Source: Branchiostoma floridae
Taxonomy: Eukaryota > Chordata > Leptocardii > Amphioxiformes > Branchiostomatidae
DNA length: 64,000 nt
Assembly (NCBI RefSeq): GCF_000003815.2
Contig: NC_049986.1
Coordinates: 24,396,952-24,460,951 of the forward strand
Direction: 5' to 3'
Shown in pieces: positions 215-62,334 of the stretch (position 1 is its first letter; the number at the start of each line of letters is the position of its first letter). A program made the translations under genes and the position numbers. Under the pieces are notes generated by a model that was given only the letters and a program-made list of their open reading frames with translations, did not search any database and was not told the origin of the DNA.

Positions 215-2749
215 CTGTAGCATAGACCTCGACCTCGCACAGTGTCAAGTCCGTTGTGTTCATGCCCTCCGGTGGTATTGCCTGTATCGACACATAATGG
301 CCGTACATCGGCGGGGCGCAGGACGCTATGATGGCCAGCGTGTTCAAAAGTTCAGTCGTGTAATTTTGTCCGCATTGGTCATTCTGCGTGAAATCTTCGT
401 TCGGGCCAACCCGCACTGTCAGAGTGGTTCCAGCAGTATCTGTAAAAATACGTCAACAAATGTAGTAAGTGAAAATTAGGAATTGTACCGTGTAAAGTGA
501 GTCAGAAGAATGCTTAACGTCACCTTCAGTACTACAGTAAAGATACCAGACGACGTTACGCAGCGGTGGAGGCGTACGTGTGAGAGACATATGATTACGC
601 AGATGGAAAAGAAATCGTGCTTGGTCACAAAATGCTTTGTTGTTTTTCTTCATTCTATTCACGCTCTTTTACAAGTAGCCCATAGAATATAGTCAATATA
701 CTATTTGTACTTCTAGGAGGCGATTTGTCTTATCAATCTAAACAATCATATGTCTCGTATCGCAACTTTTAGACTGTGTCTTCTGACTTGAGTTAGCAAC
801 AGATGATTATTAATGCAGGTGCATGTACCAGTAACTGTGCATAAACAACTTACCCAACTGGAGGAGGGGAACCCTAATGCTGACCCGGCTGACTGAGTGG
901 TAACCTGCCAGGTCCAGCTTCCACCATGGCTCATATTCTAGGTCTGTTTGAGAGCAGTTACTGGAACCATCCACAGCCTTTTCCGCTCCCGTACCATTAG
1001 CAAATGTGGAACTCTGCGATGCTTTCTGTCCGAGGGCTAAGTTATCTTCTGCAATAGAGCAGGAAGCCATCATTATAAAAAATAGGGCTGTAATGACAGG
1101 AGATTCTGAAGTTATTTTTGCTATAGAAGTAAACAAGAGTAAGCGTTTGGCCTTTTCTGTGTTTGTTTCTTTCTACCTATAAATCAAGACCCCCTAAGTT
1201 GGTAAGTCTGACTATTTAGTATGTTGGTAGTTAAAGAAGGTATCAAACACCCACGACATACCTCAAAGCGCAATTATCGCAGCGCGGAGGATTGTGCCCT
1301 ACTTACTGACAGTGGTTTCTTTTATCCGAGTTTGATGGGGGTTCTTGACACCGTCTTCAGAATGTAAACAGACATCTTACCTTTGTCACAGAATGGGCCA
1401 GTCCAGCCGACGTTGCAAGCACAGGTGCCGTCAGCACTTCCCGTGGTGCAGTCCCCGCGGCTCTGACAAACGTTTTCTGCCGCAATTTCTTTCAACGCAT
1501 CGCCTTTCATGTGGGAAGGGGAGTTGCAGGTAGGGTCATGTATATCGTCAATTAAATCGCGCAGACGTGCCGAAGTCAATAGATCATATAAACTACAGTC
1601 ACACCTCCATGGGTTTCTAGCTATGTAAAGGGCCTGAAGACTGGTCAGATTTGAGAATGCCGATGGCAGACTCGAAATGTTATTGTTGTCCAGGTGAAGT
1701 TCATCCAAACTGGTCAGATGTGAGAACACTTCGTCCGGGAGGTCAGTTATTTGATTTTGAGATAGCCGTAGCTCTTTCAGCTGGGTAAGGTCTGAGAACA
1801 TCCCATCCGGGAGGTCAGGTATATGATTATCAGATAACCACAGCTTCTCCAGACTGGTGAGATGTGAGAAAATTTTAGAGGGCAGACTCGAGATGTTATT
1901 GTTGTCCAGGTAAAGCCTTTCCAAATGGGTTTGCAGATTTAAGAATATTTCATCCGGGAGGTTTGATATATAATTACCAGATAGAGTCAATTCATACATA
2001 TGGGTGCGATTTGTAAAGAGCCCATCCGGGATGTCAGATATAAGATTGTCAGATAGATCAAGGCTAATAAAATGACGGGGGAGATGTAAGAACACTTCCG
2101 AGGGAAGACTCGAGATTCTATTGCTGTTCAGTTCAAGTATGCTCAAACTGGTCAGATGTGAGAACACTCCATCCGGGAGGTCAGATATATGATTATCAGA
2201 TAGCCGCAGGAACTGCAGATTGGTAAGATGTGAGAAGATTAGAGAGGGAAGACTCGAAATTTCATTGTTGTCTATATAAAGGAGTATCAAACTGGTCAGT
2301 TTAGAGAATACTCCATCCGAGAGGTCATCGATTTCATTAAAATCTAGCCGCAGAGTTCCTAGACTGGTGAGATCAGAGAAAACTCCATCCTGAAGGACAG
2401 CTATATGATTATTCATTAGCCGCAGCACCTTCAGGCGGGTGAGGTGAGAGAACACTCCGGCAGGGAGAACCCGGATGTGGTTGTTGTACAGAGAAAGCTC
2501 CTCCAGGCTGGTGAGGTAGGATAAATCCGCATCAGACAGATTCTGTATGTTATTGTTGTACAGGTTCAGGACAGTTGTACCCAATGGTATGTTGGCGGGA
2601 ACGACTGTAAGCCCCCGTCCGGTACAGTCGACCACCCCGTTATTTCCACAATCACATGTCTCCGGACAGGTGAAGGTGGCCGTGATGACCCACAGGAGAC
2701 CGAGGACACTGACTGCAGCAGCTCGGCACGTCACACGGCTCCTCTGCAT
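215..2749 (-). CDS. LRR-EGF-FTP ectodomain protein, probable receptor tyrosine kinase paralogue (partial, runs off left edge)
   Basis: Three exons on the minus strand: 1381-2749, 854-1048 and 215-439, all joining in phase 1. Exon 1 starts at the ATG at 2749 with a signal peptide (MQRSRVTCRAAAVSVLGLLW), then an LRRNT (CPETCDC), about 13 LRRs of the form LPxxVFSHLTSL, an LRRCT (NPWRCDC) and one EGF-like module ending GWTGPFCDK. The other two exons encode an FTP/fucolectin-type domain (EDNLALGQKASQSS, PWWKLDL, VRVGPNEDFTQNDQCG). Exon 1 is exactly as long (1369 nt) as the first exon of the kinase gene at 33313-43527, and the FTP exons match too, so this is its paralogue. CCP, transmembrane and kinase exons would lie beyond position 1 and are not seen. 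The last exon has a good donor (GTAAAG), so the gene continues. A secreted form cannot be excluded. Confidence 0.85.
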
Positions 2750-29600: not shown

Positions 29601-31426
29601 CAGCGTTTCTGGGCACTTCGACACAGTCAGCACATTTATCAATGGTGTTGTTAACTCCCTCACGATCGGGAGAAGTCACGCGAGGGTTGGGCTGATCAAA
29701 TTTGCAGGTAGCCGTGCGGAGACGTACATTTCTCTCACTGATTTCGACAATAAGTATAATTTAGTGTCTGCGATCAGCTCCGTCTTCGACCATTACTCCA
29801 GTGGAGAATTCTCTATCGCGGGTTTGTCGGTAATGGGTCACGAATTCTCCACTAACGGACGGTCAGCAGCGAGAAAGATCGGGATCGTCCTGACTGACGG
29901 CCAGGACAGTGGAAGCGGTTACGTCATACCAGACGCGACGGCACTAAGGAACGATGGCACCACAATCTTCTGCGTCGGTGTTGCTGATGTCAGGAGGGAG
30001 ACTCTTGACAACATGGCCAGCAGGCCTGTTAGTGAGCACGTGTTCACGGCCTCTTTCGATAACCTGCAAACTATTGTAGACACACTTCGCCCTAAGGTTT
30101 GGTGTTAGGTTCTATATGTCAAAAGTCCAAATTTATTGATATCAGCTTGCTCATGCAAATCATATACTGATCAAGTGACGATATTTTTAAAAGATAACAA
30201 TGGTTGTTATGCTTAAGTTACGAGAATTACTTTAGAATTTTCACGACAAGACTGCTGGTCAAGCATTGTTTAACTTATTCACGAGTGACATTGCTTCAGA
30301 ATTTGACAATTCTTAACGTAACCCACCATTGTACACTGTATCAACATAAATTTTCTATATGTTGAATATTTAATGATCTGATCTTTTCAGAGTTACAAGC
30401 TACAAATCCTGCTTCCTTAGGAAACGAAATCTTAATTCCACCCCACGAATGGCAAAGTCACAAGAAGTCTTTTTGTGTGAATCATTTTGACGTTAATGTT
30501 AGGAGCCCTTGTGACCCAGACTTTCGTCTCAAAAATGTTTCGCTTACTGACACGTAGAAGATATATGCGACTTTTCCTACAGCCTGTATTTCATCTCTGC
30601 TGTTAATTCTGCATCATGCAAATACTAATGCATCTCAAGTAGACTCAAATATGTCGCCATCGTGATAATGCAAATCGTTTCATCATTATTACATCATTAT
30701 AACGCAGTCATCTGATTAAAATAGAGCTATAGTCTCATATCAAAATGTCTTGCATCATCTTCATCATAACCATAACCCACGTTCCAGCCCATTCCATTAC
30801 TCCATAGACGCCGTGTAAGACTCCCTGTATTATGTCACAAGGGATTGGTACAATAATGCACGTAAGGTACAGTAAAACACATATGGGTTCTGCACATGCA
30901 ACTGCGTTATGCTCGTGCTACATTCCCACAAACCTACAATAGTTTAGGAGTGTTATTCTGACATATGTTCATCACCATGCGATGTAAATATAATAATTGA
31001 TCATTTAATCATCTTGTTTCCGAAGTAGCTTGCCCCCACGGATCCAAGTACTACTGGCGTAGCCAACTGTGCTACAGGGCCTTTAACCAACAGGGTAACT
31101 ACGACGGTGCAGCCACGACCTGTTCTTCTGATGGCGGAACTCTCGCCATGCCCCGTGATGCGGGCATCAACACGTTCCTCATCAACCTGAAGAACGCTGT
31201 GGATAACACCACCTTCTTCTGGTTCGGGCTGTCTGACCGCGTCCGAGAAGGCAGCTGGGTTTGGGCTGATGGTGTTGCTCTTGGACATTTCTCGTCTTGG
31301 CATCCAGGCCAACCCGACAACTTACGTAACGAGGACTGTGCGGAGTATTGGTTGGATAACATGTGGAACGATAAATCGTGTTTCGACAACTCCGGAAAGT
31401 TCATTTGTCAAGCTGCACCAACTTAG
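14946..31426 (+). CDS. Type II membrane protein with CCP/EGF ectodomain and alternative vWA or C-type lectin C-terminus
   Basis: Coding exons: 14946-15143, 16065-16153, 18288-18387, 18638-18869, 19812-19970, 20204-20686, 20958-21019, 21131-21278, 21881-22078, 22459-22514, 22739-22898, 23367-23531, 23735-23799, 24030-24193, 25603-25762, 26487-26688, 26993-27187, 27464-27649, 28139-28309, then either 29555-30108 (vWA, ends TAG) or 31026-31426 (CTLD, ends TAG). All splice phases agree: 1248 aa with vWA, 1197 aa with CTLD. There is no signal peptide; a basic, Pro-rich N-terminal region of about 175 residues precedes one helix (about 177-200), so the N-terminus should be cytoplasmic. The ectodomain has about nine CCP modules, several split over two exons, plus one EGF. 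Complement regulators, selectins and polydom/SVEP1-like proteins share the modules, but this order with a type II anchor is not one I recognise. Ligand unknown. Confidence 0.8.
16264..17424. mobile_element. DNA transposon-like element with inverted ends, copy 1
   Basis: Left end ATGGACCGATCC, then CCCCGCCCCCTGTTCGATC and GGTTCTATTTCGAACAC; the right end is the imperfect reverse complement (GGTGTTCGAAATAGAACAGG ... GGATCGGTCCAT). Non-coding, inside intron 2 of the CCP gene. Target-site duplication is unclear. Confidence 0.6.
17480..18255. mobile_element. DNA transposon-like element with inverted ends, copy 2
   Basis: Left TGGACCCTTCCAGCCGAACA, right its imperfect reverse complement (GTTCGGCTGGAAGGGTCCA). 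Same family as 16264-17424. It ends only 32 bp before the acceptor of the exon at 18288. Confidence 0.6.
18926..19503 (+). mobile_element. 578-bp internally deleted mariner element, copy 1
   Basis: Terminal inverted repeats start CGAGGGGCGTGCAATAAGTA with TA on both sides. The 99-aa frame 19109-19408 encodes the N-terminal HTH part of a mariner transposase (MEPVECRAVIRFLYLKGRTP, PRPGRPS), then a short C-terminal scrap; the catalytic DDE/D core is gone. Lies in an intron of the CCP gene. Confidence 0.9.
20958..25762 (+). CDS. CCP exons (first block) and EGF exon of the CCP protein
   Basis: Split CCPs are 20958-21019 + 21131-21278 (CRTVDCG ... LTCTASGQWDKPALC), 22459-22514 + 22739-22898 (MDCGNIS ... 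GYERLSRDNFTC) and 23735-23799 + 24030-24193 (KKDCGNLP ... GYKVADES). Single-exon CCPs are 21881-22078 and 23367-23531 (SCGAPPEFPN, GYERTNLQIVTC). Exon 25603-25762 carries an EGF-like module (DYCQLGLHDCHPEHGVC, FSCRCRVG, GNGTHC) and the start of the next CCP (TTCPDFP). The split CCPs all use a phase 0 intron after the first Cys-Gly region. Confidence 0.8.
21131..21668 (+). repeat. Four tandem 130-bp copies of the 3' half of a CCP exon with its splice donor
   Basis: The segment starting GTCTGTGAGC recurs at 21191, 21321, 21451 and 21581, a 130-bp period. Each copy keeps the open frame RVVCERGYLPR...QWDKP(A/G)LCDP and the donor CCAG|GTAGGG. Copies 2-4 have an AG just before the coding part, giving in-frame phase 1-1 cassettes (21313-21408, 21440-21538, 21570-21668; 96, 99 and 99 nt). 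Differences between copies are few. Confidence 0.85.
22225..22385. repeat. AT-rich minisatellite (ACTATAGTAGATATAGTTTAT)
   Basis: About five degenerate units built on TATAGTAGATATAGTTTATC within an intron of the CCP gene. Confidence 0.7.
22954..23166 (-). mobile_element. LINE ORF2 C-terminal fragment
   Basis: On the minus strand one frame reads RHPEIPANHLVLWEPTTKGK, GRGRPRVTYLDNL, MEDQVHWTKISG, ending at TAA (22954-22956). The GRxRGRP...TY.D.L...M.D...W pattern is typical of the end of a non-LTR retrotransposon reverse transcriptase ORF. About 70 codons remain, in an intron of the CCP gene. Confidence 0.7.
24331..25447. mobile_element. Foldback-like element with G/C-tract termini
   Basis: Ends are inverted (CCGGTGTGACAG at 24331; CTGTCACACCGG at 25436-25447). 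Inside them are short subrepeats of the GCGAGATCGCTAGCGATTTC type separated by runs of 7-14 G or C. The central part is AT-rich and non-coding. It lies between the exons ending at 24193 and starting at 25603. Confidence 0.65.
26487..28309 (+). CDS. CCP exons (second block) of the CCP protein
   Basis: Exons 26487-26688, 26993-27187, 27464-27649 and 28139-28309. Each encodes one CCP (the first shares its start with the EGF exon). The second and third are close relatives: both have SGxxFRYPExC and TCQAD/HCQAD ... TWSG. The fourth contains NPQNGMVTC and CNDGYHLLGS. All boundaries from 26688 onward are phase 1, so this block can be extended or shortened without frame loss. Confidence 0.85.
28508..29452. 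mobile_element. 945-bp TTAA-flanked element carrying a CRE cluster
   Basis: Flanked by TTAA (28504-28507 and 29453-29456). Inverted subterminal regions share ACCGGGGGG, GGGGCTTTTGAGGCC and GCCACCAAATTT. It contains five TGACGTCA palindromes and a GTTGCCATGGCAAC palindrome. TTAA targeting suggests a piggyBac- or Kolobok-type non-autonomous element. It lies in the intron before the vWA exon. Confidence 0.6.
29555..30108 (+). CDS. vWA terminal exon of the CCP protein
   Basis: Acceptor TCTATTCTGTAG in phase 1. It encodes a complete von Willebrand factor A domain: ACDSAADIIFSIDVSGSVSG contains the MIDAS motif DxSxS, then TFINGVVNSL, RVGLIKFAG, KIGIVLTDGQDSGSG and IFCVGVADV, ending TLRPKVWC and TAG. 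It is about 180 aa, typical for the family. No phase 1 donor is present near the end, so it behaves as a terminal exon. vWA domains usually bind protein ligands through a metal ion. Confidence 0.85.
31026..31426 (+). CDS. C-type lectin terminal exon of the CCP protein (alternative last exon)
   Basis: Acceptor GTTTCCGAAG in phase 1. It encodes a long-form CTLD: CPHGSKYYWRSQLCYRAF, GGTLAMPRD, FFWFGLSDRVREGSWVWADG, HPGQPDN, EDCAEYW, WNDKSCF, GKFICQ, then TAG. QPD plus WND is the calcium and sugar-binding pair that usually goes with galactose-type specificity. If read as an exon following the vWA exon, no donor fits; joined to the CCP exon ending at 28309 (phase 1) it stays in frame. It could instead be a separate small lectin gene with an unseen first exon. 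Confidence 0.82.
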
Positions 31427-33062
31427 CGGGCTTGTATTCATACATTGGTGTCCAATGAAGGTAAAATAATGTTAAGGTAAAAAAAAGCAGTTACTCGAGC
31501 AGCTTGATAGACCCTTCATCTGACCGTTTCCTAAATCAAAACACGTAACTGTTTTCTTGAGAATGACGTCAAACATGTCCGTACCTTTATAGCCAAGATT
31601 TTAATTTAATTGAGGCGTCGATCGCTTTAAGGAAGAATGTATCTTCAAGTCTAGGGCACCAACCTTAGCATTTTTAGTACTACTAGTTTGAGTATATATT
31701 TTACAGGTTCATTTCGTATCAATTTCAATTAGTTACAAGTCGCAGCAGTGGTGGTAATTAGAACTTGTTTTAACCGCACAGTCACAGATTTGTCACGTTA
31801 TTTTTGTAGATGTTTGTTTGTTTGTCCACGGGTATCGGGTAACGGGCTTCCGGCACGCTAAAAGGCTGTGAGTAAATTTTGTATTAAGGCTGGTTTTCTT
31901 GTTGGAAAGTATTTCACTTCCACATTGTTTAATGGCTGAATTACAATCCATGTAATACATCATGATAAAAAAAGCGCTTACTAGAGAGGTAAGTATGTAG
32001 TTCACGTACCGCGATAGAAAACACATAATAGCTAAGCATGTACCATCGAGTAATAATTAAAACCACAATAAAAAAGCACGTTATTCGATAATATATAATA
32101 ACAAATATGCACATACTAGATAAGTATGTACTCCGTGTAATATATGACAATAAAAAAGCACATACCAGATAAGTATGTCGTCCGTGTAATACATCATACG
32201 TATTATGCTATATAAGGAAATCAAGGTGGCTTTTACCGATTTTACGTGCTTCACCAATCTAAGTAAACATAAAACAACTGAGTATATAATAGATGATTGT
32301 TGACAATGAAATAATTAGCACTTCCAAGATCTCATTACTCCGTAGGCCATCTAAATATTTTTTAATATTAATTGTGCTAAAAAGCTGCTTATTAGCATAA
32401 TCTATGTACATTATTGCTATTCTCAACCTGCATTTATGTCACATATGTAAAAGTCCATTCAATTGAATTAAATTGAATTAAAATTTCCATCAAAGAATTC
32501 TATATTAACATTTCCTTATTTGAAAATGATGTCTAGCTTCTATACAATCTTTCCACAATGATGTTAAACCTCGATTAATGTCACTAGTATGCATACAAAT
32601 TACCATTACAAAATAACCTCTACGTTCTTCGAGGAATTTCTCATTCTGATATTAGGAATTTCGTACCATAGAAAACAAAGGGAACTAGCAACTTCTTTAA
32701 CAGTTATGCAACTTAAGGTCTAATTTGCATATATATATTGTTACTTTAGTTAAATGAGACGGCTAGGTGGCGGAAATGTACACAACCTCCGACTCAAGAG
32801 GACAAAAAGTCTAGGCCATATCATGTACAGAACAGAAGATACAAATAAAACGGACTTGAAGTACCACCTCTTCGATACTTCTAGTCGGTATCGCTACATA
32901 ATGCTGTAGACTACCTAGGTTACTCTCCAAGCAGAGGTTGAGTCGCGTAGATATAGTAGTAGTCGGAAAAATTACAGCGCCGCTCCTCCTCCCGTAGCGA
33001 GTACCCAGGTGTCGTATTAAGTACTTGGGGCTGTTGTAATGTACTCTGCTCAGTAAAAGGCG
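31427..33062. other. Convergent intergenic region; degenerate tandem repeat at 31936-32200
   Basis: The CCP gene ends at 31426 and the kinase stop on the other strand is at 33313. A roughly 50-bp degenerate repeat (AAAAAAGCACATACCAGATA, AGTATGT, CCGTGTAATA) appears three to four times at 31936-32200. Nothing coding is seen. Confidence 0.5.
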
Positions 33063-33312
33063 AAATGCCTGTCCAGTGTTAGGCTGTTGTAATCGGGTCT
33101 GTAGAAGGTGGGATGCCTGTCGAGGTTTGGTCTGTTGTACTCGGGTCCGTAGAAGGCGGAATGCCTGTCGAGGTTTGGTCTGTTGTACTCGGGTCCGTAG
33201 AAAGCGGAATGCCTGTCGAGGGTTGGTCTGTTGTACTCGGGTCCGTAGAAGGCGGGATGCCTGTCGAGGGTTGGTCTGTTGTACTCGGATCCGTAGAAAG
33301 TGGAATGCCTAC
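33063..33312 (-). repeat. 48-bp tandem repeat just after the kinase stop codon
   Basis: About five copies of a 48-bp unit follow the TAG on the minus strand. Read in one frame they encode NRPTLDRHPAFYGPEY, clearly derived from the kinase C-terminus DRNLAFYGPEYARPAQP. Relative to the kinase frame the units are shifted by an indel beside the stop, so as annotated they are 3' UTR. The antisense frame gives a VWSVVLGSVEGGMP-type repeat ORF, which is a shadow. Confidence 0.85.
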
Positions 33313-35686
33313 CTAGGGTTGGGCAGGTCTGGCGTACTCGGGCCCGTAGAAGGCGAGATTCCTGTCTATTTTGGCCTCCAGTGTACGGAATGACGGGCGC
33401 AAGACGGGTTGCCAGCGCCAGCACTGCAGCATAAGGTCGTACCTGCAGAAAAAGCGACATCTAGCGATTGTCAAATGAACTACATCTCTTTTTTAGTCCT
33501 AATTGCCTGTTAACCTTAATGTTATTTACAAAATGTGGAGCACAAGAAATATTACTGTTCTGCAAAGTTGCAGTTTCGTGAACGAGTTATCAGCATACAT
33601 GTCCCACGTCTATCACTAGCCGCATGCATGTTTGCTGATGAGTATGATAACCTGACGAGTTATTGAATGCATTCTAATCACAACTGTCACTTTTGTTCCT
33701 TTTTCATAACCACAGGACAATACAACTTGTCCGATTGCTTGCGATCGGAGTGCAGAAGAAGACGACTTACATGGCATCCGGACAGTCTTCAGGTTGGGGC
33801 ATCCTGTATCCAGCCTGTAGCCGGTCTTTCAGATCGTTTACCGCCACGTCAGGGTATGGATGGTCCCCTAGCGTACAGATCTCGTACAGCACTATTCCGT
33901 AGGACCACCTGTTAAGGATAAGGCCACATAACTTGTATAACATGGGTCAGGGTTGTTGGTAACCCATTTGTGATATTTTTATAAGACTGCTCACAGATCA
34001 CATTATGTGATAAGATTGCACAGACATCATTTTGTGTGAAAAGATTGCTCAAATATCACTTTGTGTAGTGAAATATTAGTAACACCCCACTACTCACACG
34101 TCGCTCTGTGTGGTGTAGGCTTCCCCACCCTGTAGCCGCTCCGGTGCCATCCATTTCACTGGCACTTTTTGAAGTCGATCCTGCCGACGGTAACCTCGCT
34201 GGTAGATGTTTTCTGCCAGCCCAAAGTCGGAAATCTTCACCTTCAGGCGTTCCCCGACCAGGACGTTCCGAGCGGCCAGGTCTCCGTGGACGTAACGAGA
34301 CCGGGCGATGTGATCCTGAAATAGGAACGTCAACAAAAAAATTTTGCCTCTGACTCAGGTCTATCCTGTCATTTTGTTCACCGTTTGCAATTCACAGCAC
34401 CTAGAACTCACCATGCCTCCAGCGATCTGCCGGGCCACCTGGAACATCTGCATCACCTCGAAGTTGTAGATATCATCTCGAGGTCCGTCAGAGTTTTCTT
34501 CCTGTGGAAAAATATTACATAACACTATATATTCAAAATTATATGGAAAATAACAGATTCTACTGTTAAAAAACCATTAGACCATTGGTAACGAAGCTGT
34601 TGTAGAAAATAATGCAATTTACAGATGTCACATGCTAAATGTCTTTAAATGACCTGCAAAGTTTACTAGGAAGTTCTGTTGAAGATCTTGATCACTACTA
34701 ACGTACTCTACCTTCCCGAGGAAAACAACAATGTGGCTCACCTCCCGACATTTCCTCAGGAAACTTTTCAGGTCTCCGTACGGCATGAACTCCGTGATGA
34801 GATACAGATGGTCTCGCACCACCGTGCAGCAGTTGACCAGACCCAGCAGGTTCTTATGAGCCCCCAGGTCCACAACTGCGCGGATTTCCTCCAGGAAACT
34901 CAGCTTGTCGTCCTCACTGGCGTTTTCTGTGGATGGAACAGAACATGCACAATGACGCGAAAGGCTAGAAATCCGTAACAAGATCATCAGGTTGGTCACT
35001 ACATTACTTGATTCTTTGCACACAACCATGTCTTTTATTCAACCAAGTTTGGGACCGCATCTGTAAGCAGCGACACCAATGCTGCAGTGCAGTGCAGTGT
35101 GAACCAGTCAGATTTGCTCTCAGTACTGCCGGTCACTTGGTTGTATACAAATGAAATTGGTATTACGAGAAAGACTTACAAATGCGAGCAGATCTAAAGA
35201 AAATTTCGTTGCAAATCGTTACATTTGCATGTAGCTAAAGAGAGTAAATGGTTGTCAGAAGTTGATACAATCCCTTGTTTCAGGTGGCCCTCAAATACCA
35301 CTCTGTATTAACATGTACATGTACCTAGATACATTAGATATCTCCCACTTCACCCTTTGTACGTAATGGCAGATGTCGAAAATCAAATGTAGTTGCGCTT
35401 TTAGAACTAGTGCAAATCTCGACTAAATCGCGTGAAAATCTTTGTAAAATGCACACTTGCCCCAAAAACACTACGATACAAAAAGCATCTACAAAACCTT
35501 TAACAGTTTTTACGACGACGTCCTCCGTCCTGTCGTCCCGAGTCAGGATTGCCCGGTAAACGAGGCCGAACGCCCCGCTGCCGATCCTCTGACCAAGCGT
35601 CACCCGGCTGGGATCGACCTCGAGCTTCGGGAACTGTGGCCTGGGGGGAACCAGTTGGACCATCTCCTCCATCCTCCTCCTGTGGA
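33313..35686 (-). CDS. Exons 8-13 of the receptor kinase: tyrosine kinase domain
   Basis: Exons 35498-35686, 34742-34926, 34412-34501, 34098-34315, 33771-33908 and 33313-33442. Landmarks in order: GQRIGSGAFGLVYRA (glycine loop), EDVVVKTVK (VAIK lysine), SFLEEIRAVV (helix C Glu), hinge TEFMPYGDLKSFL, a small kinase insert (EEENSDGPRDD), VARQIAGGM, catalytic loop YVHGDLAARNVLV, SDFGLAENIYQRGYRR, VPVKWMAPERL, DVWSYGIVLYEI, RPSFRTLEAKI, stop TAG at 33313-33315. The layout is like the FGFR/RET/Tie region of receptor tyrosine kinases. The catalytic Asp, DFG and Lys are all present; only the HRD arginine is glycine. Confidence 0.87.
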
Positions 35687-38600
35687 CTGCACAGCAACAT
35701 GGGACAAGAATATTGTGGTATAACGTATCTGAGGTATGGCATAAATAAGTTGTTTTTTAAACCTTTGTTTATTCATGAAGAGCTCGAATCGGTCTGCAGG
35801 CCACTGTTCATTAAGGTCACGAGGCAAGAGGGTAGGGGCAGACAAAATATAACAAAGATCTTACGTAGGACATGTAGTGATTTGTACCAACAGCAAACTG
35901 CCATACAGAAAGGACGAAAAGATCAATAAAATTTCTCTCCGTGCAATTTTTCTCGCTGTACCTGTTGACTTGGATTACCCTGACTTTGAATGTCGGTTGA
36001 AGGAAATACAGGTGTATAAATTCCTGAAAAGGAACAGATTAGCTCACTCACTTGCCACATCATCTGGCAGAAAGTCCAGTTCAATCGGTTGTTGATAGTC
36101 TTCTCTTCTTTTTCTCCTCCTTTGTCTCAGGAAGACCATGAAGAAGACAGCTGCCACAATCAGCGCCGTGGTGATACCGGCACTGGTGCCGCCGATGATA
36201 GCTTGGGTGAACGCGAGGCTTTGTTCTGTGGGCACTGTATGTGCTATAATAACTTTTCAATTACTTTTCTGGCATCAAAACGGCAATACCGACACTGATG
36301 CCAGTGACGAGGTATGTGAAGTCCGTCCAATGATAGGGAAATTATACTTTTAGGTCTGCATATAATAATGCGGGAGTGCAACTTTTAGGTTTGTTTCTGG
36401 CAATTTAGACGACTAGGCAACATTTAGAATTCCGATCGTTTTTGCCACCTTACAGTAGTGGTGGAAACGCTGTCTAATAAACCATATCATGAGATCCCCC
36501 AATGTTGCGGGCGGCAGTTTCTACGTTAGATTGAATGCGGTTTCTTACAGTGCTCTCTTGTGAAAATTTTGAGATTGGAACAGACCTTACTTTGACTTAG
36601 TTGCTTAGACCTTTTGGTAAGATCTACCTGACACCCCCTCAATCTATTTGAGACCAATGAAGTTATGGTTTGGATAGCCGGATCGATCAGCGAACTATAT
36701 TCTTGCAGAATTATGATGATAACACTAGCTATAGACGGCAAAAGAGGCTTCGGTAACTCACGTCGGCAAATCGGAAATTCTCGTCCCCAGCTTCCGTCGT
36801 CTTCGCAGGTGGCCAAGGACCTGCCGACAAGCTCGTACCCAGGATTACAGGAGAACTGCATGTCGTTCCCAAAGCAGTAACCGTCGGTAGCATTAACCAG
36901 TCCGTTTATGATTTCAGTGGTATTGTCACAGCAGATACCTGAAAATGTATACAGCTGACATGAAGAACGGCGAAGGCTCTGTATAGAGAGTTTAAAACAA
37001 CATAATGAAAAGGTCAACGCTCAAGTAATTATCATCACCCATCCCCGATTAAGGTCTACGAAGTTTCGAGAAATCTCGTACCATGGTTGGTACTCTCTTT
37101 CATGCAGAAACCAGAAAATGGTAAAGAAGAGAAATCAGAACCACTTTCGTCAACTCACGTTGGCATGTCGGAATCTCTCGGTCCCAATGTTTGTCCACCT
37201 GGCAGATAGCGGAAGAGCTGCCGACAAGCTTGTAGCCGACGTCACAGGAGAAGTGGATACTGTTCCCAGAGCAGTAGCCGTTACTAGCGGTGATATGGCC
37301 GTTCGTTATGCTGATTGTATTGTTACAGCAGGACCCTGGAATTGAAATGGTCAAAACATATTGAATTTATCTAAATTTATATTCTTTACAACTGTAACAA
37401 TATCAACGTTTTTAGATCATGCACTTTGGATTTCATCATATCTGCGCCGACTTTCTTCGTCCATCATGCATATGACTCCCGTTCAATGGTAAGGACAATG
37501 ATGGAATTGTCATGTACTGTAGACAAGCACCCTGTCTGGTTATGGGCGGGGGGAGGTATAAGGGTAAAAAGAATTCCCCGTCGATCGGCCAGTTGACAGG
37601 CTGGCATTTCAATTCTGTATTACTTTATGCATCAAACGGCGGTCACAACCTCTTTAGGCATGCATTACATACTGGCTGATTTATGCCTAGGCGCCTGAGA
37701 CAGTGACAACAGGCCTACGTGAAAACATTTTGCACCGATGTACCTCGAAGGCCTGGCATTCACATTATCTACCTAAAGAATCATGGCGGTGACGTCATCG
37801 TTATGTAACTAACGATTTTTACTATCTCACGTTGGCAAGTCGGAGTCTCCGCGTCCCAACTCCCGTTCTTTAGGCAGGTGGCACTGGGCTTGCCCGCGAG
37901 CTCGTATCCAGGGTCGCAAGAGAATTGGATTTTTTCATTCCCAGAGCAGTAGCCGTTGGTATCAGTGACCTTGCCGTTCTGGATTGATATGGTGCCGTCA
38001 CAGCAGATATCTTTAAATAGAAAAAGAAAAGAAACAAACAGGCGTTGGAAACAAGACATTGCACCATCAGGAAAACGAGCGCTATATAGAAAGACCTGGA
38101 ATAAACCGCTATAGATAGAACTGTGTCAGCGCCAGTCATAGTGTCAGTTCTTTTTGAAACGGCCTTGACAACTAGATTCCTTAACAGAGGTAATCACCTA
38201 CCAACGGTCACACGTGCTTATATTTTCGTTAATCCTTATGGAATTCTTAACCTCTAACAGGCTACACAAATACTGGAAAATAGTAGAACTTGAACAAATA
38301 TGAACAGAAAACATGTCAGGGGACTTATCTGGCCGAGAAGTATGGTTTGCAACCAGCTTACTCCTCTGGCATGTTAAATGTCCATATTTGTTAAATTCCT
38401 ACAATTTTTCGAGTGACCCGAGAGTCTGGTAGAGGCTAAAAATTCCATACGGACATTATACGGACATACTGAATATACGCACGCGTGATCCCACCCTACA
38501 GTTTAGGTCTATGAGCCCTTTTTGCCTTTTTTGGCTTGTAATACACCTTTGCTGGCCATTTCTTTTGTACTGGGTCACTTGTAATGCCGGCCCGTGGCCA

Positions 38601-41600
38601 AAAAAAGAGACGACCCAGACAGCCTACTATGGAGGCTAGACCTCCGGATCGTTAGGGGGAAATCAGGATTGTATTTAAACAAATAAAAAAGAAAGCGAAG
38701 AAATCAGAAACACAACTAATGTGTAATGGACAAAACGTGCTGTCATGAGTTAAATCTTGTATGCGTAATAATTACGCATACAAGATTTAACTCATGTCGT
38801 ATTTTGTCTCTTATCTCATGTTGAATGTTGTATCCAGTGGTGTCGCTTGAGTACGGAACCACATGCACTGACAGTGGAGTTAGTGTATGACTAAAAACAT
38901 AAACGACGTTTCCGGGTTGTACGTTTGATTATCGCTACACACTAACTCTTCAAAAGTTTACTTTTCATCACTCTTTCTGGTATAGGCTTAAAAAACAGAG
39001 CTATTCTAACCTGTAACATAGACCTCGACCTCGCACATTGCCAAAATAGTTGTTTTCCGGTAAACCGGTGGTATTGCCTGTACCGACACGTAACGGCCGT
39101 ACATCGGCGGGTCGCAGTGTGCCTCTATATTCAGGAACTGTAACGCTGACCCAACGTCGTAAGACTGTCCGCATTGGTCATTCTGGGTGAAGTTCTCGTT
39201 CGGCCCAACCCGCACCATTAATTTGCCTAAAGTAAAACAAGTCATGAAATTCACGGTGACAAGTAGAAATAGGTTCCTTGTAAAATCAGGCAGAATGTGT
39301 CACCTTCAGCACAGACACCCATACCACACGACTTCACACAGAGGAAGAGGAATATAATTGGTCCAATTCATAGATTTACTTCAGTTTTTTGTACAAATAT
39401 GAAAATAGTATCTCGATAAGATAATTGCTCAGATTAAGGGCTGATGGCCACAGTTTTGTTTTTGATGGCATAGAGTAATTAAGTAGCTATAGATGGCTAT
39501 TGATGCAAGTGTATGTAGCTGTAAACTTCCGTGCAGANNNNNNNNNNNNNNNNNNNNNNNNNNNNNNNNNNNNNNNNNNNNNNNNNNNNNNNNNNNNNNN
39601 NNNNNNNNNNNNNNNNNNNNNNNNNNNNNNNNNNNNNNNNNNNNNNNNNNNNNNNNNNNNNNNNNNNNNNNNNNNNNNNNNNNNNNNNNNNNNNNNNNNN
39701 NNNNNNNNNNNNNNNNNNNNNNNNNNNNNNNNNNNNNNNNNNNNNNNNNNNNNNNNNNNNNNNNNNNNNNNNNNNNNNNNNNNNNNNNNNNNNNNNNNNN
39801 NNNNNNNNNNNNNNNNNNNNNNNNNNNNNNNNNNNNNNNNNNNNNNNNNNNNNNNNNNNNNNNNNNNNNNNNNNNNNNNNTTGATGCATGTGTATGTAGC
39901 TGTAAGCTTCCGTGCAGAAACCACTTACTGTAAATTATATCGATGTCCCTAACAGTGACCCGGCTGACCCTGTAGTAACCTGCCAGGTCCACCTGCCACC
40001 ATGGCTGTTGTTCCCGGTGTGTTCTAGCGCAGTCATCAGTGGAACCATCCACAGCCTTTTCCGCTCCCGTACCGTTACCCTGTGTAGAACTTTGCGATGC
40101 TTTCTTGTCAAGGGCAAAGTTATCTTCTGTAAGTGAACAGTGACCGAATATCTATCTAATATAGTATATACGAGGGGCGTGCAATTAGTAATGGTCCTGA
40201 CCCATTTGCCATAGCAGGAGATTAATGAAACTTGGCACAGTTATTAGTCTTTCTCTTCATAGGAATCACCCAGAGTTATGCATTTCTCCCATCGTTTGAT
40301 GCAGCTCTGGACACCGATTTTGTAGGACACCCCAGGTTGGTCCTCCAACTGATGCCTCATCAATGGCACAAGAGGGACGACCAGGTCTGGGAGCTGTTTC
40401 CACAGACTTCCAGCCACGTTTGAATTCAGGATGCCAGCGTTTTACAAGATCATATGATGGGGCATCATCACCATAAGTTTCATTTATTTCATCAAAAGTC
40501 TTCTTTGGTGTGCGTCCTTTCAAATACAAAAACCGGATCACTGCGCGACACTCAACTGGTTCCATTTCACACCTGGTCCATTTCGCACCTGACTTAGTTC
40601 AAACACCAGTAAATCAGAAACCACAATTAGTTCAGAGCTGTCTTTTGCAACATAACCCATAGAGATATGAATTATTACACATACAAAATTTCATTTAGAT
40701 CAGACAACTGGAAGTGGGTCAGGACCATTACTTATTGCACGCCCCTCGTATGTATGTCACAGCAGAGATCACAATCCAGTAGAATCGCCGATTCTCCTAG
40801 GAGAGATCGCGATCGGAGCTGGTCCTAGGGCCAACTCCGATTGGGTTCTCTCCTAGGAGAATCGGTGATTCTACTAGTATGGATTGCGATCGGGGTCTCT
40901 CCTAGGGCCAACTCCGATCCAAAATCAAATGATGCTAAGATATGGGAAACAGACTGCGATCGCGATCTGTCCTAGGACAATCGGCGATTCTAATAGTACG
41001 TATTGCGATCGGGATCTCTCCTAGGACCAACTCCAATCCAAACTCAAATGATGCTAAGATATAGGAAACAGCAATACTTTTTTTTGATAAACAATGATTT
41101 TATTTAGTAAAAACCTACTAACTCATTACCAACCACACACAAGCCTACTTGTGTCACTTCTACAATGTTCACTCAAGACTTCCATACTAGAGTCACTTCT
41201 TCACCTTTACTCAAGGCACACTTCTACTCAATGATCACTTAACAATGGTTATTGTTCTTCTAAAGCTGTGAAATGATTCAGTACAAGTCTGACTAGTGTC
41301 AGTAGTGAAATGTACTCAATTGGTGTGAAATTGTGAGTCATATCTTGAAACTCTACTTAATCCTTTGACACCTGCTAGACGACTTTACAGTTGTTATTGT
41401 TCTTCCAAAGCTGTGAAATTTGCATACTGACACATTGTTTGATTACCTGGTGGTGTCTTTTACATATTATAAGATTTTTGCCACTACTTTATCAGAAATT
41501 ACTTTATCAGAACACATACTCACATGACATTTGCCATGAAATTGATGCTTTATACTATAGAGTATCTTGAGTAAAGTTGAAGAAGTGACCCTAGTGTGGT

Positions 41601-43527
41601 AGTCTTGAGTGAAGTTAACATTGTAGAAGTGACACAAGTAGGCTTGAGTGTAGTTGGTAATGAGTTAGTAGGTTTGCATTATTACTAAATAACATCATTG
41701 TTTATAAAAAAAAAGTATTGCTGTTTCCTATATCTTAGCATCATTTGAGTTTGGATTGGAGTTGGTCCTAGGCGAGATCCCGATCGCAATCTGTACTAGA
41801 AGAATCGCCGATTGTCCTAGGACAGATCGCGATCACAGTCTGTTTCCCATATCTTAACATCATTTGAGTTTGGATCGGAGTTAGCCCTAGGAGAGACCCC
41901 GATCGCAATCTATATAGGAGAGAACCCGATCGGAGTTGGCCCTAGGACCAGCTCCGATCGCGATCTCTAATAGGAGAATCGGCGATTCTACTGGATCGTG
42001 ATCTCTACTGTGACATATATATATCTTAATAGCAATGTTAGTTCTGTCTTAAAAGCACTGTTTTTACGGAGATGTTCGAAAAAGGACCATGATCGAACAA
42101 TGGACACGATGTTGATTATTTGTTGAAGCCCTTCCAATGATATGTAAACGAATCTTACCTTTACCACAGAATGGGCCAGTCCAGCCGACATTGCAAGCAC
42201 AAGTGACGTCAGCGCTTCCCATGGTGCAGTCCCCGCGGCCGAGACAAACTTTGTCTACTGTAACAGTTGCTTTCAGTGCGTCGCCTTTCATGTGGTGAGG
42301 GGAGCTGCAGGTAGGGCCATCGGAAATTGAAGTACGCAGACGTGCCGAAGTCAGTAGACCATGTATACTACAGTCACACCTCCATGGGTTTCCTGCTATG
42401 TAAAGGTTCTGCAGACTGGTGAGATGTGAGAACACTCCAGAGGGCAGACTCGAGATGTTATTGTTGTCCAGGTGAAGTCGTACCAAACGGGTCAGACGTG
42501 AGAACACTCCAGAGGGCAGACTCGAGATGTTATTGTTTTCCAGGTGAAGCACCCCCAAATTGGTCAGATGTGAGAATACTCCATCCGGCAGGCCAGCTAT
42601 ATGATTACCAGACAGAGACAAGAGCCCCAGACTGGTGAGATGTGTGAACACTCCAGTGGGCAGACTCGAGATGTTATTGTTGTGCAGGTGAAGCTGTAAC
42701 AAACTGGTCAGGTTTGAGAATACTCCATGAGGGAGGTCAGCTATATGATTACCAGATAGATACAAGAGCCCCAGACTGGTGAGATGTGAAAACACTCCAG
42801 TGGGCAGACTCGAGATGTTATTGTTGTGCAGGTAAAGATCTCTCAAACTGGTCAGATTTGAGAACACTCCATCCGGGAGGTCAGCTATATGATTACCAGA
42901 TAAAGACAGACTAAACAGAGATGTGAGATGTGAGAACACTCCAGAGGGCAGACTCGAGATGTCATTGTTTTCCATGAGAAGCACCACCAATCTGGTCAGA
43001 TGTGAGAATACTCCAGTGGGCAGACTCGAGATGATATTTTTTTCCAGGAAAAGCTGTTCCAAACTGGTCAGATGTGAGAACACTCCATCCGGGAGGTCAG
43101 CTATATGATTATCAGATAGCCACAGGTACCGCAGGCTGGTGAGATGTGAGAATACTCCAGTTGGCAGACTCGAGATGTTATTGTTGTGCAGGAGAAGCTC
43201 CACCAAACTGGTCAGGTTTGAGAACACTCCATCCGGGAGGTCAGCTATGTGATTATAAGATAGATCCAGCAACTCCAGACGGGTGAGGTAGCCGAAATCC
43301 GCATCAGACAGGTCCTGTATGTTATTGAAGTCCAGGTAGAGAACAGTTGTACCCAATGGTATGTTGGCAGGAACGACTGTGAGTCCCCGTCTGATACAGT
43401 AAACCTGCTCGTTAGACCCACAAGAACATGTCTCCGGGCAGGTGAAGGCGGCCGTGATCATGACGACCCACAGGAGACCGAGGACACTGACTGCAGCAGC
43501 TCGGCACGTCACACGGCTCCTCTGCAT
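33313..43527 (-). CDS. Receptor tyrosine kinase with LRR-EGF-FTP-CCP x3 ectodomain (13 exons, complete)
   Basis: Exons on the minus strand: 42159-43527, 39929-40126, 39011-39226, 37831-38010, 37159-37335, 36762-36938, 36052-36234, 35498-35686, 34742-34926, 34412-34501, 34098-34315, 33771-33908, 33313-33442. All have GT-AG edges and keep frame; the sum is 3450 nt, or 1149 aa plus stop. Order: signal peptide, LRRNT, about 13 LRRs, LRRCT, EGF (exon 1); FTP/fucolectin domain (exons 2-3); three CCP domains (exons 4-6); one transmembrane helix followed by RQRRRKRRE (exon 7); tyrosine kinase (exons 8-13). Ectodomain exons are all phase 1-1. The kinase has a glycine loop (GSGAFGLVY), VVVK lysine, DFG, KWMAPE and a Trp-rich C lobe. 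The HRD motif reads HGD. The mature protein would be a type I plasma membrane receptor; its ligand is unknown. An ATG further upstream in the same frame would add MCCNLYNLCYCHSSSS, but the ATG at 43527 gives the cleaner signal peptide and matches the paralogue. Confidence 0.85.
36052..36234 (-). CDS. Exon 7 of the receptor kinase: transmembrane helix
   Basis: The exon encodes a short stalk (PTEQSLAFTQ), a hydrophobic helix (IIGGTSAGITTALIVAAVFF then MVFL) and a basic stop-transfer stretch (RQRRRKRRE). It joins the last CCP exon in phase 1 (CGA C|TG CCC) and the first kinase exon in phase 1 (GCA A|TC CAC). The orientation is type I, with the kinase inside. Confidence 0.85.
36762..38010 (-). 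CDS. Exons 4-6 of the receptor kinase: three CCP/sushi domains
   Basis: Exons 37831-38010, 37159-37335 and 36762-36938 each encode one CCP module, each phase 1-1. All three share the unusual start xxCC(D/N), NG(Y)C(S/F)GN, FSC(D/N)xGY(E/K)L, C, W, P(T/I)C. The tandem CC at the start, with a matching extra Cys in GYC(S/F)GN, suggests an added disulfide compared with the usual four-cysteine sushi fold. They are close to each other in sequence, so the array probably arose by exon duplication. Confidence 0.85.
38744..38796. repeat. Perfect 53-nt palindrome
   Basis: Two 26-nt arms (CATGAGTTAAATCTTGTATG CGTAAT) around one central base, with no mismatch. It lies in the intron between the FTP and first CCP exons. 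Confidence 0.95.
39011..40126 (-). CDS. Exons 2-3 of the receptor kinase: FTP/fucolectin-like domain
   Basis: Exon 2 (39929-40126) encodes EDNFALDKKASQSSTQGN, KAVDGSTDDC, PWWQVDLAGYYRVSRVTV; exon 3 (39011-39226) encodes VRVGPNENFTQNDQCGQSY, PPMYGRYVSVQAIPP, CEVEVYVT. Leading NxALxKxASQSS, WWxVDL and the closing CEVEVY are hallmarks of the F5/8C-like fucolectin-tachylectin-4 (FTP) family, which binds fucose in several animals. Whether the sugar-binding residues survive was not verified. The intron between the exons contains the assembly gap 39538-39880. Confidence 0.85.
39538..39880. other. Assembly gap (343 N)
   Basis: Both sides carry near-identical sequence (TTGATGCA(A/T)GTGTATGTAG, then CTGTAA(A/G)CTTCCGTGCAGA), so the gap sits in or beside a local duplication and its true length is uncertain. 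Confidence 0.95.
40171..40748 (-). mobile_element. 578-bp internally deleted mariner element, copy 2
   Basis: Same length as 18926-19503 and nearly identical in the opposite orientation, with TA at both ends. The encoded 99-aa frame (40266-40565) differs only at the last residue. It sits in the intron between the LRR and FTP exons of the receptor kinase. Confidence 0.9.
40755..42015. mobile_element. 1261-bp palindromic foldback element
   Basis: TGTCACAG at 40755 and CTGTGACA at 42015, flanked by TA. The outer 400-450 bp of each side are imperfect reverse complements; the loop is about 41230-41560. The arms are filled with smaller palindromes (CTCCTAGGAG, GATCGCGATC, CCTAGG). Its left end is 6 bp from the mariner element at 40748. 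Confidence 0.85.
42159..43527 (-). CDS. Exon 1 of the receptor kinase: signal peptide, LRR array, LRRCT, EGF
   Basis: One 1369-nt exon encodes the entire LRR ectodomain. After the signal peptide comes LRRNT (CPETCSCGSNEQVYC), then about 13 repeats of 24 aa. Two repeat types largely alternate: NHIADLPDGVFSNLTSL and NNISSLPTGVFSHLTSL. LRRCT begins NPWRCDC and has its later cysteines (PTCSSP, DKVC). The EGF-like end is CTMGSADVTCACNVGWTGPFC. The layout (LRRNT, variable LRRs, LRRCT in one exon) resembles vertebrate VLR, GPIb and slit-type ectodomains. The donor is AAAG|GTAAG, phase 1, and fits the FTP exon (G|AA GAT AAC). Confidence 0.88.
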
Positions 43528-43754: not shown

Positions 43755-45578
43755 ACGGAAAAACGAAAATTGGATCATATAGTTAACGGACTTGCACATT
43801 ATAAAAAAAAAGGAAAGAAATCTTTACGTGGCTGTCGTAAAAATCCAGTGATATTATATGTTTACAGGAAACCCATTCGAATTCAAAAGAAGAAAATGTA
43901 TGGGGAAGAAAGTGGGGAGGGCAAATACTGTTCAGTCATGGGATGAGTAATCAGCGATGTGTTGCTATTCTTTTGAAAAAAGACTTAGATTATACTGTAC
44001 ATGATGTTAAAAAAGATGATGATGGTCGACTTCTTATCGTAGACATTACTGTAAAAAGCAAGCGATTCTGCTTGGCTAACATATGCATATACGGCCCAAA
44101 CAAAGACAATCCCATTTTTTTATGATTAGGCCATGTTGATTTGATTATATGGATGACATCCGCGCTCGCACCAATTTTCGGCCGTTTCCAAAAAAAAAGT
44201 TTCGACCACACAATAAATTGTGCAAAGCAGCTGTAAAATGAGCACAAATATTCCATAGATTGAAAAAAAGTATCAGAAAACAGATAACTATTGCCATAGA
44301 ATGCCAAAATAAATCTAAAGTCAAAGGATAAGATGTGAAAGGACAGAAGGAAAAATATCTATTGTTGGTAGGGGGAGGTACCAGTACAGAAAATTCAGGT
44401 CCAGAAGATCATTTACAGGTCCGGACCTGAACCTGGACCTGGTACAATTGACTATAAACTCTACTTGACTTCGCTCTTGTTGTCTTCTTGGGCCCCGGTA
44501 AGACCCCAAATGCCTGCTGACATTTTGTCCATTTTGTAATTGGCGAAACCTGTTCCTCTGATTTTTTTTCAGGTCTGTTTTTTTTTTCCGGATTGGTCCA
44601 AGAAGAAAAAAATGTTTTGCACCGTATGATGTACTTGTCTCTACACCTAATTGTTGGTATACCATACTATGTGTGTTTAGTCCTATGTTCAACCTTCCTG
44701 GCCACTTTGATTTCATACTGAAGGCAACTTTTTTTTTTGCCAAACTTTTTTTTTATTCGCTCGCTCGCATCAGTTTTGGAGTTCCCAGAGGATGTCATCC
44801 ATATAATCCCAGAGGATGTCATCCATATAATCAAATCAACATGGCCTTATGTTGAAAACAAAATTTTAGATATGAAATCAAGCCATGAAAATATAATTGC
44901 TGTCGGTGATTTTAACAAAGTCCTTAATGCGGGCCAAGATCGTGCAGGAACTAATTCCACAGTTTATCATCCTCAGGCACAACAACGGATTTCTGACATG
45001 ATACAGGCGTTAGACTTAGTAGATGCCTGGCGTTTCCAATTTCCACACACATCCAGATTCACATGGCGCAGAGGAAAACAGGCAAGCCGTAACGATTACT
45101 TTTTAGTTTCCTTTTCACTTATTGCTGACACATCTAATGTAAAAATATCGGATAAATTTAAGTCTGACCACAAGTTTATTTCTATCTATATTAAAACAAC
45201 AGATTATCAGCGAGGTAAAAACTACTGGAAATTTAATCTAACTTTATTAAAAGATGCTACATTTGTAAAAGAAACCGAGGTATTTACTAGAGAACTTTTT
45301 TCAGAACAATAATGGGACAAGTGACCCGCTAACAGTGTGGGACACGTTTAAGTGTTGCATAATTATAAGGGGACATACTATAAAATTTGCATCAAATAAA
45401 CGTAAAATGTATTCAAATAAAGAAGCCGACTTGAATAAACGGATTAGTGAGTTATATTAAGAATTGGATGAGACAGACACCCCATCGGATACCTTACTAG
45501 AAGAAATAAGAACACTTCAAAGTGAACTTGAAAATCTACACGAACGAAAAGCTGAACAAACGCACTATGTTCGAAAAG
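43755..45578 (+). mobile_element. LINE (L1/Tx1-like) endonuclease remnant, split by a transposon
   Basis: 43755-44128 encodes the N-terminal endonuclease part (VNGL, LQETHS, VAILLKKDLDYTVHDVKKDD, ANICIYGPNKDNP) with frameshifts; 44847-45578 continues with VENKILDMKSSHENIIAVGD, FNKVLNAGQDR, FTWRRGKQASRNDYF, KSDHKFI and the linker to the reverse transcriptase (EEIRTLQSELENLHERKAE). There is a stop in the linker. The copy ends abruptly at the tandem array that follows. Confidence 0.82.
44129..44846. mobile_element. 718-bp non-autonomous DNA transposon inside the LINE
   Basis: Perfect 33-bp terminal inverted repeats beginning GGCCATGTTGATTTGATTAT, flanked by TTA on both sides, which fits PIF/Harbinger-type insertion. 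The right end also has a tandem duplicate of CCAGAGGATGTCATCCATAT. Non-coding. Confidence 0.85.
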
Positions 45579-53000: not shown

Positions 53001-53100
53001 GACCATCTATGGCCCGAATTCAGCACACCCCTTCATTGCCGCTACACTCTCATTGATAGGACTAGTCCGGGACAAACTCGGTATTACAGGAAAGCCATAG
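50070..53100 (+). pseudogene. Nucleotidyltransferase-TPR pseudogene (first copy of the tandem)
   Basis: This is highly similar to the intact copy from exon 3 to the end, but broken in three ways. It lacks the equivalent of about 56050-57060 (exon 2 and its intron). A second deletion joins exon 3 (GACCTGAACTCAG) straight to mid exon 4 (ACTGACTCACTACC), removing the GS...DLE nucleotidyltransferase motif and leaving an in-frame TGA. A CAA to TAA change at 51556-51558 stops the reading before the TPR array. The remaining frames 50626-51558 and 51574-53100 are otherwise open and well conserved, so decay looks recent. The TPR part (51574-53100) could still be translated if a downstream start were used. 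Confidence 0.85.
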
Positions 53101-53291
53101 ACTACTTTGACCAGACATGTGAAAAGTTCCGAACTACATGGTGCAGCACAACCTCACATTGTCTCGTGAACATTGCCTCGCTTTGCCCAGGTATGAACAG
53201 AAAATCCATCGACTACTTGGAAAAGGCCATATACGTGCAAAGAGACATGTACCGTCATCACTTCCGTCACATTGAAGTTTATTACTACTAG
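53088..53291 (+). pseudogene. Out-of-frame TPR remnant after the stop, first copy
   Basis: Directly after the annotated end, a shifted frame stays open for 67 codons: [14 protein letters not shown] ... MNRKSIDYLEKAIYVQR, then TAG. It reads as the natural continuation of the TPR array. The DNA at the break is CTCGGTATTACAGG, where other repeats have GGTGATTACAGG or GGGGATTACAGG, so one G appears lost. Confidence 0.75.
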
Positions 53292-54639: not shown

Positions 54640-54909
54640 AAAAATGTACCAACACTATGAGAAAACCAAGAATGCTGTTATTTAGACGTCACCCCTGCGT
54701 GGGTAACACGACGGCTGCACTGCTATACCTAATTGGCAAAGTTCAAAGTTCATTGTGAGACTTATTTGACTAGCCATTCTATTGGATTACGTCAACAACG
54801 CACCTAGTATTCCCCTGTCGACACTTCCGCGTTACGTGGCACATTAAAGGCGATTTAGACACCGTAACTTAGCGATCATCTATCTGTATATCATTACCAG
54901 CCTATCACC
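54640..54909 (+). promoter_or_regulatory. Conserved upstream region of the NTase-TPR gene (duplicated at 62065-62334)
   Basis: The 270 bp before the ATG are almost identical before both exon 1 copies, including TCGACACTTCCGCGTTACGT and AGGCGATTTAGACACCGT close to the start. No TATA box is evident. Likely the promoter and 5' UTR; identity also reflects recent duplication. Confidence 0.45.
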
Positions 54910-62064: not shown

Positions 62065-62334
62065 AAAAATGTACCAACACTATGAGAAAACTAAGAATGC
62101 TGTTACTTAGACGTCACCCCTGCGTGTGTAACACGACGGCTGCACTGCTATACCTAATTGGCAAAGTTCAAAGTTCATTGAGAGACTTATTTGACTAGTC
62201 ATTCTATTGGATTACGTCAACAACGCACCTAGTATTCCCCTGTCGACACTTCCGCGTTACGTGGCACATCAAAGGCGATTTAGACACCGTTACTTAGCGA
62301 TCATCTATCTGTATATCATTACCAGCCTATCACC

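Follow-up and report, generated by a model that had tools for sequence, protein, structure and literature searches.

Does a single lancelet gene place LRRs, a lectin-like domain and sushi modules outside the cell and a tyrosine kinase inside it, and if so, what might such a receptor recognise? The first-pass annotation of this locus proposed exactly such a gene and ventured a part in non-self recognition. We have therefore asked whether the exons belong together, whether the arrangement recurs elsewhere in the genome, and which function the family as a whole points to.

Structure of gene A

The window (the whole stretch of DNA analysed, 64,000 nucleotides) corresponds to C8:24396952-24460951 within a 513-Mb genome of 431 contigs. 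On its minus strand, the gene under study (gene A) starts with an ATG at window position 43527 and ends with a TAG at 33313. It has 13 exons and 12 introns, all with GT-AG borders, and its coding sequence of 3450 nt specifies 1149 aa in a single frame with zero internal stops. The earlier coordinates (33313-43527) proved exact, as did the claim of 13 exons on one strand that keep one frame from signal peptide to kinase stop. The eight junctions between exons 1 and 9 are all phase 1; the next four, inside the kinase, are 0, 0, 2 and 2. The parts are as follows (window positions, with the basis in brackets).

42159..43527, minus: exon 1, ATG, signal peptide, LRRNT, LRR array, LRRCT and EGF, aa 1-457 (gene model, Pfam, paralog exons)
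39929..40126, minus: exon 2, F-type-lectin-like (FTP) domain, first half (gene model, Pfam, paralog exons)
39538..39880, no strand: assembly gap (N) of 343 bp in intron 2, inside the lectin-like domain
39011..39226, minus: exon 3, FTP domain, second half (gene model, Pfam, paralog exons)
37831..38010, minus: exon 4, sushi/CCP 1 (gene model, Pfam)
37159..37335, minus: exon 5, sushi/CCP 2 (gene model, Pfam)
36762..36938, minus: exon 6, sushi/CCP 3 (gene model, Pfam)
36052..36234, minus: exon 7, transmembrane (TM) helix and juxtamembrane part (gene model, hydropathy, paralog exons)
35498..35686, minus: exon 8, kinase glycine loop and VVVK lysine (gene model, Pfam)
34742..34926, minus: exon 9, kinase alpha-C glutamate to hinge (gene model, paralog kinase search)
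34412..34501, minus: exon 10, short kinase insert (gene model)
34098..34315, minus: exon 11, HGDLAARN catalytic loop, DFG, activation loop and APE (gene model, paralog loci)
33771..33908, minus: exon 12, kinase C-lobe (gene model, paralog kinase search)
33313..33442, minus: exon 13, end of the kinase and a short tail ending ...FYGPEYARPAQP, then TAG (gene model, paralog kinase search)

The exon-8 donor is poor (gttttg), and the paralog on C5 (gene N) has a similar one there (gtttgt). Near-identical sequence stands on both sides of the gap in intron 2 (window 39502-39918), which suggests a collapsed repeat or joined haplotypes. Intron 1 contains a Mariner-type element (window 40172-40754) with a Mos1 HTH domain and, by eye, inverted ends; it adjoins the LRR/FTP junction, and the stretch from about 40760 to 42000 appears by eye to be rich in inverted repeats. 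At the level of the DNA, we regard the predicted structure of gene A as near certain.

Domains of the predicted protein

Pfam recognises LRR_8 (7.1e-72), F5_F8_type_C_2 (8.5e-9), Sushi in three stretches (7.3e-27) and PK_Tyr_Ser-Thr (6.6e-84), together with EGF_Teneurin just over the cut-off (2.2e-5); no Ig domain was found at E 0.001. The two most hydrophobic 19-residue segments start at aa 10 (the signal peptide) and aa 790 (the TM helix). Gene A therefore has the layout of a receptor tyrosine kinase (RTK), namely a signal peptide, an ectodomain, a single TM segment and a cytoplasmic tyrosine kinase with its catalytic residues, the signal peptide and TM being assigned by hydropathy only. The gene model, Pfam and the collinear paralogs described below agree on the proposed order, LRR-EGF-FTP-CCPx3-TM-TK, as that of a single RTK gene. 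We conclude that gene A is, by all these predictions, a real RTK of unusual make-up and a member of a two-tailed receptor family.

The LRR array lies intact within one germline exon. Its best solved relative is LRRC15 (300 bits), while the best VLR chain scores 166 bits, although VLR chains are shorter and the scores only loosely comparable; the 'VLR-like' label of the first-pass annotation stays tentative. The FTP domain is by sequence an F-type lectin domain, matching FBP32 at 1.5e-16 and the eel lectin 1k12 at 3e-8. Fucose binding, which the first-pass annotation had assumed for this domain, is not supported. The fucose-binding motif, His-Arg-Arg, is degraded in the alignment of gene A with 1k12: a gap stands opposite the His, and I and K take the place of the two Arg. 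Nor do the FTP exons of the paralogs show a conserved His at that position. A fucose-specific lectin was rejected as the identity of the domain on the strength of this degraded motif.

A family of collinear paralogs

The genome was searched with the LRRCT-EGF, FTP-sushi-TM, kinase and TIR parts and the matches were compared by position; all counts of family loci are lower bounds, the best candidates having been scored. Of the at least 16 matches to the LRRCT-EGF part, one is at 32% identity and the other 15, gene A among them, at 57-100%. At ten of the 15 loci listed (genes A, D, G, H, I, J, K, L, M and N), FTP/sushi exons and kinase exons of the gene A type follow downstream on the same strand, which bears out the suggestion that an RTK family has expanded in this genome. 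The genome searches did not find the first FTP exon of gene I or the TM exon of gene K, and for gene M (C4) the kinase is represented by its last two exons alone, some 16 kb past the sushi exon. Gene L (C183) is possibly another haplotype of a gene already placed. The open frames around the 15 LRRCT-EGF matches range from 359 to 900 aa, so the number of LRRs seems to vary.

Other loci are partial. Gene E (C8:24977408-24981958) has the ectodomain and a TM exon, but the genome searches and a reading of 5.5 kb at the locus turned up neither a kinase nor a TIR domain; it is possibly a decoy receptor or a pseudogene. Gene O (C13) has an LRRCT-EGF match without partner exons in the genome searches. 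Gene P has FTP, sushi, TM and kinase exons and no LRR match upstream in the genome search, genes Q (C2) and R (C18) were found as kinase exons only, and C8:1062341 as a last exon only.

These loci bear on whether the receptor is an error of prediction or assembly that joins the LRR, FTP/sushi and kinase exons of different genes. The gap in intron 2 with its near-identical flanks would fit such an error. Lancelet gene models are described as often wrong, and gene-prediction errors have been blamed for part of the exon shuffling reported in these animals (PMC4967905). Against this, the domain order of gene A is repeated at nine other loci with the same kinase and is therefore more than chance. 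Gene N is gap-free, with 12 exons over 8.3 kb encoding 1257 aa with zero internal stops, and its domains and kinase-exon phases are as in gene A. Furthermore, the LRR exon of gene A has neither a TM segment nor a stop of its own ahead of its phase-1 donor. The case for gene A as a predicted single gene is thus one of genomic collinearity rather than of automatic gene models, and we consider a chimera or assembly artefact extremely improbable. As far as DNA can tell, the collinear paralogs and the in-frame gene N speak against the LRR and kinase exons belonging to separate genes, the outcome that the first-pass annotation had named as fatal to its proposal.

One ectodomain plan, two tails

At three of the 15 LRRCT-EGF loci listed (genes B, C and F), a TIR domain takes the place of the kinase. 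Gene B is the tandem neighbour of gene A on the same strand and is cut by the left edge of the window. Its exons are as follows (window positions, and contig positions beyond the edge).

1381..2749, minus: exon 1, signal peptide, LRR and EGF
854..1048, minus: exon 2, FTP domain, first half
215..439, minus: exon 3, FTP domain, second half
C8:24396325-24396498, minus: CCP
C8:24395293-24395445, minus: TM
C8:24393717-24394147, minus: TIR

Gene B thus reads LRR-EGF, FTP, one sushi, TM and TIR (Pfam TIR_2, 3.4e-25) in 848 aa and six exons, with every junction in phase 1, and is 60% identical to gene A over the LRR exon. A second TIR paralog, gene C (C8:24930000-24934499), is gap-free and in frame and has the same junction phases; its LRR exon is partial, being cut by the stretch fetched. 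Genes B and C share with Toll-like receptors an LRR ectodomain followed by TM and TIR, with EGF, FTP and sushi inserted between LRR and TM. The TIR of gene F is assigned by position only, and its TM exon was not seen. The TIR-tailed tandem paralog was overlooked by the first-pass annotation and is new here; it is the strongest pointer to an immune role.

One ectodomain plan (LRR-EGF-FTP-sushi) is, as far as the gene models go, joined through phase-1 exons to two kinds of tail, a tyrosine kinase or a TIR domain. Since the exons that meet are all phase 1, an exchange of tails needs no change of frame. Lancelets are described as having the fastest exon shuffling of all metazoans, favouring exons of 1-1 phase (PMC4284660). 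An ectodomain tree was built for 15 genes (A to N and P), with O, Q, R and S left out and with gene I lacking the first FTP half, L sushi 2 and P the LRRCT. The best tree, weakly supported here, disperses the three TIR genes instead of joining them in one clade. Forcing them into a single clade is not rejected by the AU test (p = 0.103), so only one tail swap is needed. At least one tail exchange has taken place, and more than one cannot be claimed. The nearest TIR domains outside the family (66-68%) lie at four loci, all on C16. The genome searches gave no FTP, sushi or LRRCT-EGF match at these loci, and in the one read over 7 kb an upstream exon looks Ig-like by eye, while Pfam found nothing.

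Rates of evolution

We estimated dN/dS with our own Nei-Gojobori counts on aligned exons; the pairs are not independent, the LRR array lies outside the counts, and at least one pair showed no synonymous difference at all. The median was 0.66 for LRRCT-EGF (15 genes), 0.49 and 0.60 for the FTP halves (14 and 15 genes), 0.40 for sushi 2 (14 genes) and 0.45 for TM (11 genes), and fell to 0.29 for kinase exon 11 (11 genes) and 0.23 for exon 9 (10 genes). Among nine TK genes (M and P left out), ectodomain dN/dS exceeded that of the kinase in 35 of 36 pairs, with medians of 0.56 and 0.30. pN was greater than pS in 15 of 105 LRRCT-EGF pairs, in 4 of 91 and 9 of 105 pairs for the two FTP halves, in 3 of 91 sushi 2 pairs, in 2 of 55 TM pairs and in zero kinase pairs. 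By these counts, the ectodomain exons evolve faster than the kinase exons; all medians are below 1, and the counts demonstrate fast evolution but not positive selection.

The kinase domain

Among the best 60 solved structures, the kinase of gene A matches FGFR4 at 215 bits, Tie2 at about 211 and FGFR1-3 at about 204-209; the EGFR entry that ranks above the FGFRs is a two-domain chain, at about 136 bits per domain. For gene N, the best 60 are all FGFRs but one, again a two-domain EGFR chain. By best match among solved structures, the predicted kinase of gene A is nearest to FGFR. The key residues, read by eye, are GxGxxG, VVVK, DFG, APE and AAR, with HGD in place of HRD, so that gene A differs from the FGFRs and Tie2 both in this motif and in having no Ig domains found.

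HGD is present in 11 of the 11 family kinase loci read, whereas HRD is present in 26 of 26 other kinase loci of the same genome (23 distinct, three repeating a place; these are top-scoring matches, not a random set). The family kinases are thus of the non-RD type, lacking in all 11 loci read the Arg before the catalytic Asp. Non-RD kinases are described as carrying Cys or Gly at this position, and plant receptor kinases of this type, as far as they had been characterised by then, as all recognising microbial signatures (PMC3411088). The plant receptors FLS2, EFR and XA21 resemble gene A in being LRR-TM-kinase proteins without the HRD Arg, with Cys there (PMC3411088) and Gly in gene A. They are Ser/Thr kinases, in contrast to the tyrosine kinase of gene A; we claim no homology, and the likeness would be convergent at most. 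Carrying the link between non-RD kinases and immunity from plant receptor kinases to an animal tyrosine kinase would be an extrapolation by analogy.

The FGFR-like kinase could also belong to an orphan developmental or adhesion RTK whose ectodomain has matrix or a self protein as its ligand, like those of Trk and DDR, the TIR siblings then being side products of exon shuffling. Trk and DDR do have LRR and FA58C ectodomains (PMC8662651). Trk, with three LRRs and two Ig domains (PMC10199209), has an LRR ectodomain and a tyrosine kinase in common with gene A, which differs in its long LRR array, EGF, FTP, sushi and FGFR-like kinase; the LRRs are present in gene A, while a Trk-like Ig domain was not found by Pfam. 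Discoidin domain receptors share an F5/8-type domain and a tyrosine kinase, but the FTP of gene A is instead closest to the F-type lectins FBP32 and 1k12, and LRR and sushi are added. The multigene family with its faster-evolving ectodomain and the TIR domains at three paralogous loci also speak against a developmental or adhesion receptor, which we consider rather unlikely while giving it more weight than any other alternative.

In the same genome, tyrosine kinases encoded by one open frame of about 900-1000 aa are numerous and clustered (e.g. C12:602153-976384, C8:24052841-24141095 and C7:24409479-24544784). They make up another large expansion, of apparently intronless kinases.

The C-terminal tail

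The end of gene A runs into a repeat.

33040..33366, minus: 48-nt minisatellite, 6.7 copies, overlapping the C-terminal codons of gene A

The minisatellite is open in two frames, one Ser/Thr/Pro-rich and the other YxxP-rich. Exon 13 of gene A enters it and the stop falls in the first unit, whereas paralogs D and G read it in frame as STGIPPSTDPSTTAQ-like units and paralogs P and S read it partly as FYGPEYNSP-like units. Paralogs therefore differ in the length of the tail and in how many tyrosines it has. The last-exon open frames of D, G, P and S, at 126-231 aa versus 59 in gene A, might be taken to mean that gene A is a decaying copy whose repeat tail was cut by an early stop. This seems very unlikely: the stop comes after a complete kinase and 13 clean exons, and the copies on C5, C6, C15 and at C8:25246 end near the same place.

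Function of the family

What might this family do? Gene A is probably a single-pass RTK and belongs to a multigene family of recognition receptors encoded in the germline, in which the ectodomain plan on phase-1 exons is followed by TM and then by one of two tails, an FGFR-like non-RD tyrosine kinase or a TIR domain; we propose that it recognises microbes or altered self. We infer that non-self recognition by the family is likely, and an immune role seems to us the best reading. The LRR arch and the lectin-like domain would bind a ligand on a microbial or altered-self surface, with the sushi modules as a stalk. Clustering by the ligand would let the kinases phosphorylate each other and the tyrosines of the tail, and the phosphorylated tail could then recruit SH2 adaptors. 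The TIR siblings may report similar ligands into the MyD88/NF-kB route. Tandem duplication and the swapping of symmetrical exons could in this way give the same kind of recognition part a different output.

Several points count against an immune function. The purifying selection seen on the kinase would be compatible with any RTK, RTKs bearing LRR or F5/8 domains with developmental roles exist (Trk, DDR), and the sugar-binding motif is degraded. F-lectins and LRRs take part in fertilisation, and a family with tandem members that combines LRR, F-lectin-like and sushi modules could be imagined to supply a gamete receptor, or one that tells self from non-self between individuals, exploiting the diversity of paralogs rather than sensing microbes. 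The TIR tails point instead to immunity, and we consider such a receptor improbable.

In general, the pattern-recognition receptors of animals pass their signal on through adaptors, and growth and development are the province of RTKs. This line would be blurred by a family that puts one recognition plan on both kinds of tail; such a family would also supply natural chimeras, two of them adjacent, for asking what each output does for like recognition. With its conserved HGD, the family kinase would allow a direct test, in an animal tyrosine kinase, of whether the non-RD state is linked to immunity. More tentatively, and with rather less confidence than in the proposal for gene A itself, the family might represent a chordate germline pattern-recognition repertoire whose single fast-evolving LRR/lectin-like/sushi ectodomain has been coupled, by phase-1 exon exchange, to two different immune outputs, a TIR tail or a non-RD tyrosine kinase, the kinase branch being a separately evolved animal counterpart of the plant LRR non-RD receptor kinases.

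The lancelet receptors FrLRR and BbLcLRR are described as LRR immune receptors with the tyrosine-phosphorylation partners Grb2 and Lck (PMC10199209, PMC8211107). They act through Grb2 or Lck, and the passages of these papers that describe them mention no kinase domain of their own, whereas gene A has its kinase built in. In the literature on lancelet receptors and domain architectures we did not find this LRR-EGF-FTP-sushi-TK layout, and an earlier description in older work (D'Aniello 2008, Huang 2008) is possible.

Other features of the window

Between the two receptor genes, the plus strand contains the exons of one or more genes (window 18485-31426) with a VWA domain (29500-30108), a C-type lectin domain (31001-31426) and, by eye, sushi-like and EGF-like stretches. 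An exon resembling window 19975-20700 sits inverted at L009:19-618, also by eye. Below-cut-off matches to retroelement reverse-transcriptase-associated zinc-binding and endonuclease domains lie at window 9122-9760 and 44722-45312. Two tandem TPR protein genes, closely similar by eye, occupy window 50536-63057 on the plus strand; the first is split by a stop into two open frames, and the second has TPR repeats and a match to the DUF294 nucleotidyltransferase.
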